In this document: positions 30,911 to 32,569 of the stretch, in pieces
Numbering within the stretch: position 1 is the first letter of the stretch
Layout of the letters: the number at the start of each line of letters is the position of its first letter
DNA from: an uncultured SAR86 cluster bacterium
GTDB taxonomy: Bacteria; Pseudomonadota; Gammaproteobacteria; Magnimaribacterales; D2472
Assembly: GCA_902632555.1 (NCBI GenBank)
Contig: CACPCZ010000008.1
Coordinates: forward strand, 1-55,641
Direction of reading: 5' to 3'
DNA length: 55,641 nt
Translations under genes and position numbers: made by a program
Notes under the pieces: generated by a model
What the model saw: only the letters and a program-made list of their open reading frames with translations
Told to the model about the DNA's origin: nothing
The model's database searches: none

Positions 30911-32569
30911 ATGAATAAAAATAAGCAATATAGAATTGAGAAGGGTCTTTTACTCTTTACGCAGCCTAGATCGCCCTATTTCTATGGAAAATTTCGTATA
31001 AATGGTAAATATAGAACTCAGTCATTTGCGCCTATTTCAGATATGGAAGAAGCTAAGAAAAGGCTTTATGAGTGGCGTGAGGAGATTATTCAACAAGAAA
31101 ATAGTTTTAGCGTAGCTCAAAACATTATTACTTCTGACAGAAATGAATATGTAACTTTTGAAAAACTTGAAAACAATTTTCAATTCCTTGATGTTGGTAG
31201 ATTTGATCCTGGCAAAAAAACTCCAGATGAGCGAAAAATTGAATTCGTTGAAATATACGGCGAATATAACCAAGTTCAAGCTTCAAACCAAGCTCACAGA
31301 TGTTTAGATTGTGGTAATCCTTATTGTGAATGGAAGTGTCCTGTTCACAATTACATTCCAGATTGGCTAAAACTTGTAAATGAAGGAAATATTATGGAGG
31401 CAGCAGATTTATGTCACTCTACAAATAGCCTTCCTGAAGTTTGTGGACGTGTATGCCCGCAAGACCGTTTATGTGAAGGAGCTTGCACATTAAATGATGG
31501 TTTTGGGGCTGTAACTATCGGATCAATTGAAAAGTATATTACAGAAAAAGCTTTTGAGATGGGCTGGAAGCCTGATCTTTCGCATAGAAAGTGGACTAAC
31601 AAGAAAGTTGCAATTGTTGGGTCTGGTCCTGCTGGAATTGCATGTGCAGACATTTTAACTAGATCAGGCATTAAAAGTCATGTTTATGACAAGAATGAGG
31701 AAATAGGTGGTTTGCTTACTTTTGGAATACCTGAGTTTAAACTTGAAAAATCTGTAGTTAAAAGAAGGAGAAAAATTCTTGAGGAAATGGGAATTAATTT
31801 TCATCTTGGACAAGAAATTGGAAAAGATATTCCCTTTCAAAAACTATACGATGAACATGATGCTGTTTTTTTAGCTATGGGAACATACACCTCACTTGAA
31901 GGTGGATTTGAAGGTGAAAAACTTCCGGGCGTTTACAAAGCGATTGACTACTTAATATCAAATACTAAAAAACTATTAAATATGAACACTGGCAAAACTG
32001 AACATATTAATTTTAAAAATAAGAAAGTTATAGTTTTGGGCGGTGGTGATACTGCTATGGACTGCAACAGGACAGCTATAAGGCAAGGCGCAAAATCAGT
32101 TACATGTTTATATAGAAGAGATGAAAAAAATATGCCTGGATCAAGAAGAGAGGTTCAAAATGCAAAGGAAGAGGGAGTGATTTTTAATTTCAATATTCAG
32201 CCGATAGATATTTTAGGTAATGATAAGGTTGAAGGAGTAAAAACAGTTCAAACAATGCTTGGAGATCCTGATCAAAATGGTAGAAGAGTTCCTATTCCTG
32301 TGCCAGGATCAGAAAGAATATATGATGCAGATGTTGTAATAGTAGCTTTTGGTTTTAGAGCTAGTCCTGCTCCGTGGTTCGTGGACTTTGATATTGAAAC
32401 GAAAAAGAATGGGCTTGTGGTGGCAGAGGAAAATCAAGAATTTAAGTTTCAAACATCTAATGAAAAAATATTTTCTGGGGGAGATATGGTCAGGGGCTCT
32501 GATTTAGTTGTAACTGCAATTTGGGAAGGAAGAGAAGCTGGTAAAAGTATAATAAAATATGTTTCATGA
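30911..32569 (+). CDS. gltD: glutamate synthase small subunit with an extra recombinase-arm-like N-terminal domain
   Basis: GltD delivers electrons from NADPH to GltB. Residues from about 88 match ordinary Glt[10 protein letters not shown], iron-sulphur cysteines [13 protein letters not shown] and [15 protein letters not shown], the FAD site [10 protein letters not shown], the NADPH site GGGDTAMDC, and the C-terminal [14 protein letters not shown]. At 552 residues it is about 80 longer than E. coli GltD (472). The extra region, roughly residues 10-62, has the look of the N-terminal arm-binding domain of tyrosine recombinases: [21 protein letters not shown], then [13 protein letters not shown]. 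No ATG, GTG or TTG lies just before the core, so the extension is translated. The 3' end overlaps hemE by four bases. Confidence 0.93.

Follow-up and report, generated by a model that had tools for sequence, protein, structure and literature searches.

The gltD gene and its N-terminal extension

What is the stretch of protein that precedes the catalytic core of GltD in this SAR86 genome, and what might it do for the enzyme? The window (the whole stretch of DNA that was analysed, 55,641 nucleotides) is a contig of a 1.04-Mb SAR86 genome. In the ORF table, gltD runs from 30911-32569 on the forward strand and encodes 552 residues. The product was identified as the small subunit of glutamate synthase by the curated GltD model TIGR01318, which scored 725.1 bits against a cut-off of 482.95 and spanned residues 90-551. 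Since this match starts at residue 90, about 88 extra residues lie N-terminal to the core, and the claim of an earlier note that there are about 85 is confirmed. The frame can be divided into three parts, all on the forward strand. Residues 1-62 (30911..31096) form a predicted integrase arm-type (b-b-b-b-a) domain, assigned from the AlphaFold2 model, profile homology, conservation and dN/dS. A linker follows at residues 63-88 (31097..31174), variable by dN/dS and with pLDDT under 50 from residue 66 in a full-length model whose core is poor as well. The catalytic core (31175..32569) comprises the Fer4_20 iron-sulfur and pyridine-nucleotide oxidoreductase domains (TIGR01318, PF14691 and PF07992).

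The gene for the large subunit, gltB, lies at 26393..30817 on the reverse strand, as read by eye from its translation and GltB marker peptides. By the ORF tables the two divergent genes are separated by an intergenic region of 93 bp (30818..30910), which contains the repeat described below. The sample of the order comprised 203 genomes, 107 of the SAR86 family f1 and 96 of the families f2-f4. Divergent gltB and gltD around the gltD site were observed in all eight f1 representatives showing both genes, the window included, and the two genes were collinear in 5/5 f4 genomes. No integrase gene adjoining gltD was noticed in the window, which was not scanned systematically for one. Downstream, an ORF at 32566-33603 that reads by eye like uroporphyrinogen decarboxylase (HemE) overlaps the gltD stop, and gltD may therefore share a transcript with a gene of heme synthesis. 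Frames similar to this ORF were also seen 3' of gltD in locus L070 (genome G134). In L070 the gltB and gltD frames are broken at several places, from sequencing error or decay.

Conservation and selection on the extension

We searched 60 relatives for GltD. A full-length match was found in 34 of the 36 f1 genomes among them, the other two giving no full GltD match, and the extension was present in all 34, with the match starting at query residues 1-3. The extension thus recurs in other members of the lineage, a check that the earlier note had proposed. The GltD orthologues of f4 began at query residue 86-87 (8/8), and the more distant f2 and f3 matches (37-41% identity) at about residue 101-106. 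A profile search of the 203 genomes detected the arm domain in 94 f1 genomes, which span 10 genera; the frames were GltD wherever this was checked (the 34 genomes and nine further representatives; the others were assigned by frame length or are cut by contig ends). The remaining 13 of the 107 f1 genomes had neither the domain match nor the GTCATAC site described below, through a gap or loss. Across f1 the domain showed 49-100% identity, and 41% in the broken G134. A search of genome contigs gave 10 loci, nine of which carry the domain at 74-97% identity (seven SAR86 and two Gammaproteobacteria); the tenth was a weak partial match in a Borkfalkia MAG.

Median dN/dS among the f1 gltD genes (22 of the 24 tried) was 0.114 for residues 5-62, 0.364 for the linker at residues 63-88 and 0.046 for the core, the ratios coming from 167, 170 and 228 of 231 pairs, respectively. 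Judged by these ratios, the arm domain of GltD is under purifying selection. Ahead of the core, the last in-frame start is the ATG at residue 45, within the arm domain, and codons read by eye gave no in-frame ATG, GTG or TTG between residue 45 and the core. A start-codon misannotation of gltD was rejected on the grounds of this start-free interval and the dN/dS data, which bear out the earlier claim that there is no start near the core and that the extension is translated. A one-off fusion was likewise rejected, because the domain recurs over the f1 genomes. A frameshift artefact was rejected as well; broken frames in G134 (L070) and G198 (L102) were only noted and left unmended.

Homology and predicted fold of the arm domain

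The earlier note had read residues 10-62 as resembling the arm-binding domain of a tyrosine recombinase. Taken as a single sequence, the GltD extension stayed under the Pfam cut-off (Arm-DNA-bind_3, E 0.08-0.16), and scans against Pfam, PHROGs and NCBIfam returned weak or sub-threshold rows only. Two of these, rSAM_mob_pairA (NCBIfam, E 0.0013, 18 bits against a cut-off of 355) and DUF1780 (Pfam, E 0.053), fell far short of their cut-offs and were discarded. A family profile of 30 rows was built from the GltD, Rieske and IOR domains and searched with hmmsearch. This profile matched a tyrosine recombinase of 382 aa from an f3 SAR86 genome (L089) with E 1e-11; the recombinase itself matches a PHROG integrase with E 2e-22 and lies adjacent to tRNA-Phe. 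Among 369 genomes of the class, the profile gave seven matches outside SAR86 with E 3e-6 to 8e-3, six of which were read by eye as tyrosine recombinases (E 1e-6 to 2e-3 with hmmsearch), the seventh being a 91-aa fragment. The Pfam family DUF6538 matched nine of the 30 profile members, with a best E of 0.0037. The profile check thus came out positive with the family profile, but the single sequence was under every curated Pfam cut-off.

The AlphaFold2 model of the domain showed the b-b-b-b-a arrangement with a pLDDT of 90.5 (strands at 5-10, 13-17, 24-30 and 33-38 and a helix at 45-65). A model of full-length GltD, made with 18 close sequences, reproduced the arm domain, with a poor core and a mean pLDDT of 58.9. 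In a VIA-align comparison, integrase arm domains were three of the top five structures, at ranks 2, 4 and 5 (3rmp, Z 6.5; 3jtz, 6.2; 3ju0, 5.9), with all Z values below 8, the level that the tool requires; rank 1 was a methane monooxygenase inhibitory subunit and rank 3 an AP2 domain. Foldseek with the domain against PDB and BFVD gave no match at E <= 0.001. The predicted fold is thus that of an arm domain, and the matches to solved structures are weak. No relative of the domain was found in viral contigs, nor in phage records queried with the f4 Rieske domain. A recombinase catalytic family was absent from the Pfam rows of GltD and from the 25 best of its 96 NCBIfam rows; GltD and tyrosine recombinases have only the arm domain in common. 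With the profile match to an integrase at E 1e-11 and the predicted fold, the recombinase-arm likeness stood, and by these comparisons residues 1-62 of GltD are homologous to the arm domains of tyrosine recombinases.

A repeat upstream of gltD

A direct repeat, GTCATAC-NNN-GTCATAC with a 10-bp period, lies at 30878..30894 on the forward strand, just ahead of gltD, and is the sole exact match in the window. Of the 94 genomes whose gltD carries the domain, 92, all of f1, had a single copy of the exact repeat, and the 96 f2-f4 genomes had none; a control with the reversed pattern gave 0 matches. Comparison of coordinates placed 3-35 bp between the repeat and the start of the domain in 92/92 genomes. 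The two domain-bearing genomes without the exact repeat are G161 and G162, and in G162 (L073) the repeat is off by one base. By eye, the repeat is retained while the flanking DNA differs. A sigma-70 consensus for gltD was not found. The earlier note had raised regulation beside the gene's own promoter as a possibility, and this gains support from the co-occurrence of repeat and domain (92/94 against 0/96). Its conservation together with the domain makes the GTCATAC repeat a candidate operator, putatively of the arm type and tied to the presence of the domain.

Other carriers of arm domains in SAR86

Beyond what the earlier note had described, similar domains head other SAR86 proteins, mostly iron-sulfur proteins. 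Across the 203 genomes, the family profile at E < 1e-10 matched GltD (f1), the Rieske protein of f4, IOR (indolepyruvate:ferredoxin oxidoreductase) and the f3 integrase. The cytochrome bc1 Rieske protein carries the domain intact in 11 f4 genomes; the gene is cut by a contig end in G190 and G202 and has split frames in G198, and in six f4 genomes Rieske is without the domain. IOR, of 1240 aa, carries it in two f1 genomes. Identity was checked against NCBIfam for L042 and L060.

In the f1 genus g12, Rieske bears a different arm type, DUF6538 (L096, 30.5 bits against a cut-off of 27), with 7/9 extensions above that cut-off. Some Rieske domains have a net charge near zero (-1 and +1 in g12; 0 to +9 in f4). 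DUF6538 is also N-terminal on recombinases, as seen in L120 (NCBIfam) and L194 (by eye). Over the order it was found on 60 frames of a GltD-like oxidoreductase that has ferredoxin-type motifs (most are 670-715 aa long, and contig ends truncate a few). It also heads 12 IscS proteins, all from f3, nine g12 Rieske proteins and 40 small proteins (149-210 aa) in which a hydrophobic stretch was seen by eye at the C-terminus; the other rows were recombinases or were weak or spurious. These classes were read for a sample and assigned by frame length for the remainder; IscS and oxidoreductase identity was taken from NCBIfam for one member each, the oxidoreductase being below the models' cut-offs. With these assignments, none of the 121 genomes concerned held two non-recombinase DUF6538 proteins. 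A search of 109 genomes of the class for DUF6538 gave three matches: the window's own genome, a fragment and a recombinase-like frame of 540 aa. With so few matches, the expansion appears, within this sample, to be specific to SAR86. Every large carrier is either an iron-sulfur protein or IscS, an assignment that for IOR and the oxidoreductase comes from family membership and cysteine motifs seen by eye or below cut-off.

The window's own genome holds the small DUF6538 type (G000:C1:119370). The frame in this region (L139, 1505-2071) and those in L140, L141, L142, L156 and L157 encode 150-210 aa with a DUF6538-type arm domain, a variable linker and a hydrophobic C-terminus, and have GTACA-type repeats ahead of the start. 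From this layout, the small protein might be a membrane-anchored DNA-binding protein.

IscS with an N-terminal DUF6538 arm domain was observed in 12 f3 genomes, for example at L143 (883-2307), L144 (939-2432) and L145 (1604-3049), and iscS was found in most f3 and f4 genomes. In four genomes with fused IscS (G049, G052, G055 and G058), the GltD search gave no DUF6538-type oxidoreductase match. The f3 genome G037 has IscS without the domain, divergent to a DUF6538 oxidoreductase. In L161 (3779-11284), iscS, iscU and a ferredoxin/IscA-like gene are divergent from a DUF6538-bearing GltD-like oxidoreductase, which is followed by two apparent 2-oxoacid:ferredoxin oxidoreductase subunits (by eye).

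Upstream repeats of the other carriers

Each arm class goes with its own upstream repeats. Besides that of gltD, the classes are TTGAACA/TGTTCAA (f4 Rieske), ATACACA/TGTGTAT (IOR) and GGTACA/TGTACC (DUF6538). Four TTGAACA/TGTTCAA half-sites precede the fused f4 Rieske gene in all 13 genes read (of 14), at -151 to -176, -123 to -146, -24/-25 and -8, whereas none was found in the four domain-less f4 genes read (of 6). Similarly, four ATACACA-like half-sites were found in both fused IOR genes and none in the one unfused IOR gene read.

GGTACA/TGTACC was present at least once before 72 of 87 DUF6538 carrier frames and at least twice before 58. Among 190 other genes in these loci, the corresponding counts were 10 and 1. 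The 87 frames include duplicate loci, and 15 of them are without GGTACA. GGTACA/TGTACC was the top 6-mer, among those with at least two G/C, before fused IscS (at least two copies in 12/12) and before the oxidoreductase (29/36; the pattern located 36 of the 42 listed upstream regions). For the small proteins and g12 Rieske taken together, the top 6-mer was GTACAA (6/9), with two copies of GGTACA in 4/9, and nine g14 oxidoreductases had one or two GGTACA only. The core GTACA occurred within 100 nt in 58/58 DUF6538 carriers, a figure that stands without a control. Integrases show repeats of this kind too: the DUF6538 integrase L120 has GGTACA twice ahead of its start, and the integrase in L089 (1421-2768) has TAACACA/TGTGTTA five times ahead of its start. 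From its setting, L089 is likely the end of an integrated element in a SAR86 genome.

We also applied a motif-free test, which scored repeated 7-mers in each sequence separately; the upstream regions of one gltD and of one oxidoreductase gene were not found. The test was significant for the fused f4 Rieske genes (10/10) and for the integrase L089. It was significant for 2/15 gltD (one by another word), 1/12 IscS, 7/19 oxidoreductase, 1/2 IOR, 1/3 g12 Rieske, 1/6 standalone and 1/7 integrase upstream regions. The controls gave 1/6 for unfused orthologues and 2/108 for other genes, and neither the five non-SAR86 integrases tested nor L120 had a significant repeat. Because few two-copy cases reached significance, the two-copy sites rest on conservation between genomes.

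Probable movement of promoter, sites and domain

The domain-less f4 petA genes follow rpsI almost directly, with no promoter gap (4/4 read), whereas the domain-bearing ones have a gap with their own repeats; a like contrast was seen in the IOR genes read. A gap after rpsI is present as well at L105, the unfused Rieske gene of the window's own genome, where reading by eye showed none of these repeats, so a gap alone is not diagnostic. We regard capture of promoter, sites and arm domain as one piece as likely rather than shown, judging from these gene arrangements. In an IscS tree of 23 of 27 loci without an outgroup, fused IscS fell in at least two places, which makes more than one origin or transfer of the IscS fusion probable.

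Proposed mechanism and alternatives

We think it probable that iron-sulfur genes have, on several occasions, captured an integrase self-regulation unit consisting of promoter, arm sites and arm domain, and that the resulting proteins repress their own genes. The observations behind this explanation are the homology, fold and conservation of the domain, the co-occurrence of domain and repeat, the single gltD site per genome and the lack of these repeats in the unfused orthologues that were read. From these we infer, for the captured units, that they moved as a whole, bind DNA and repress. A bolder possibility, suggested by the carriers being iron-sulfur proteins, is that the enzyme part may sense the state of a cofactor or partner. 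For the gene studied here, gltD would have gained the promoter region, arm-type sites and N-terminal arm domain of a tyrosine-recombinase gene together. The arm domain of GltD would bind the GTCATAC repeat just before the gltD start, in the 93-bp gap to gltB, and bound GltD would repress gltD and perhaps gltB too, so that the level of GltD would be set by GltD itself. Units with other arm types and sites would have been captured by Rieske twice, and by IOR, the GltD-like oxidoreductase and IscS. Several observations speak against this explanation: the weak structural matches, the failure to find a sigma-70 consensus for gltD, the near-zero net charge of some Rieske domains, the few two-copy cases that were significant in the motif-free test, the non-SAR86 integrases and L120 without a significant repeat, and the gap at L105.

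As a guess, feedback on cofactor-costly enzymes could be the reason why iron-sulfur proteins recur. A more specific version, which we offer tentatively as possible rather than probable, is a portable cofactor-feedback device: the arm domain would read its own operator, the cluster or complex state of the fused iron-sulfur protein or IscS would alter binding, and iron-sulfur enzymes would be metered gene by gene. On this view, the hydrophobic-tailed small proteins would be a form of the device that lacks the enzyme. IscR is the iron-sulfur regulator of isc and ties iron-sulfur status to the expression of iron-sulfur genes. IscR-like matches, none of which reached the cut-off set for the model, were obtained in 13 of 14 f1 and 3 of 4 f2 genomes, and none in the 11 f3 and 5 f4 genomes tested. 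Since IscR-like proteins were not found in these f3 and f4 genomes, arm units there might, speculatively, partly replace IscR.

The domain might instead make no contact with DNA and serve as a protein-protein adaptor that docks iron-sulfur clients to the Isc machinery, or GltD to GltB, the repeats being the sites of another regulator. Such a role would suit the nature of the large carriers, all of them iron-sulfur proteins or IscS, and, in the f3 genome read, the divergent arrangement of the oxidoreductase gene and the isc operon. However, the repeats differ between domain types, and GGTACA also precedes a SAR86 integrase, which is not an iron-sulfur protein. Together with unfused f4 Rieske and IOR genes that, where read, lacked the repeats, and with a gltD site that occurs once per genome, unlike the sites of a general iron-sulfur regulator, this makes the adaptor unlikely.

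Chance fusion of integrase 5' ends during the decay of elements, leaving neutral N-terminal baggage with an old promoter, would also account for arm homology and for promoter-carrying gaps with repeats. A dN/dS of 0.114 and a domain identity of 49-100% across f1 are hard to reconcile with an inert remnant, as are the retention of the repeat amid differing DNA and the recurrence on iron-sulfur genes, and we consider this explanation very improbable. There is a similarly slight chance that the domain binds its own mRNA or nascent 5' end and that the repeats act as RNA in translational autoregulation. Sites very near the start codon, at -8 and -25 in f4 Rieske, would fit, but there are further sites at -123 to -176, repeats in inverted and direct orientation are in keeping with double-stranded DNA, and the integrase N-terminal domain binds DNA (PMC2951348). 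Capture of an integrase self-regulation unit is the explanation that we compare with known systems below.

Comparison with known systems

No description of such captured integrase units was found in the open PMC literature among the matches listed, by titles and the starts of abstracts, and a term search of one SAR86 genome paper gave none either. If the proposed explanation is true, an autoregulatory circuit of a mobile element can pass into host gene regulation as one movable unit of sites and reader domain, and a single marine order of very small genomes would have taken this route several times. The explanation would also predict regulator-operator pairs linked to iron-sulfur enzymes, with a binding code readable from fused and free integrases.

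The Pfam families DUF6538 and Arm-DNA-bind belong to the same domain class, whereas no curated cut-off was reached by the GltD-type domain. The IscR protein is unrelated to the arm-domain carriers. In the enzyme PutA, the put promoter is divergent. PutA is reported to be a metabolic flavoenzyme whose N-terminal DNA-binding domain represses its own regulon (PMC5293562). PutA has a ribbon-helix-helix domain and is one enzyme family, whereas in SAR86 integrase arm domains and sites are found with several unrelated proteins. A close parallel is IntS of prophage KplE1: IntS represses its own promoter, which overlaps the attL arm-type sites, its N-terminal domain binds arm-type sequences, and self-repression is predicted for most tRNA-associated integrases (PMC2951348). 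GltD resembles IntS in having an N-terminal arm domain together with putative arm-type sites ahead of its own gene, for which binding is proposed by analogy. Unlike in IntS, a metabolic enzyme replaces the catalytic recombinase part. In our view the finding lies in the wider pattern, the probable repeated capture of integrase self-regulation units within one order, which varies on two known kinds of system, autoregulated integrases and enzymes with fused DNA-binding domains.
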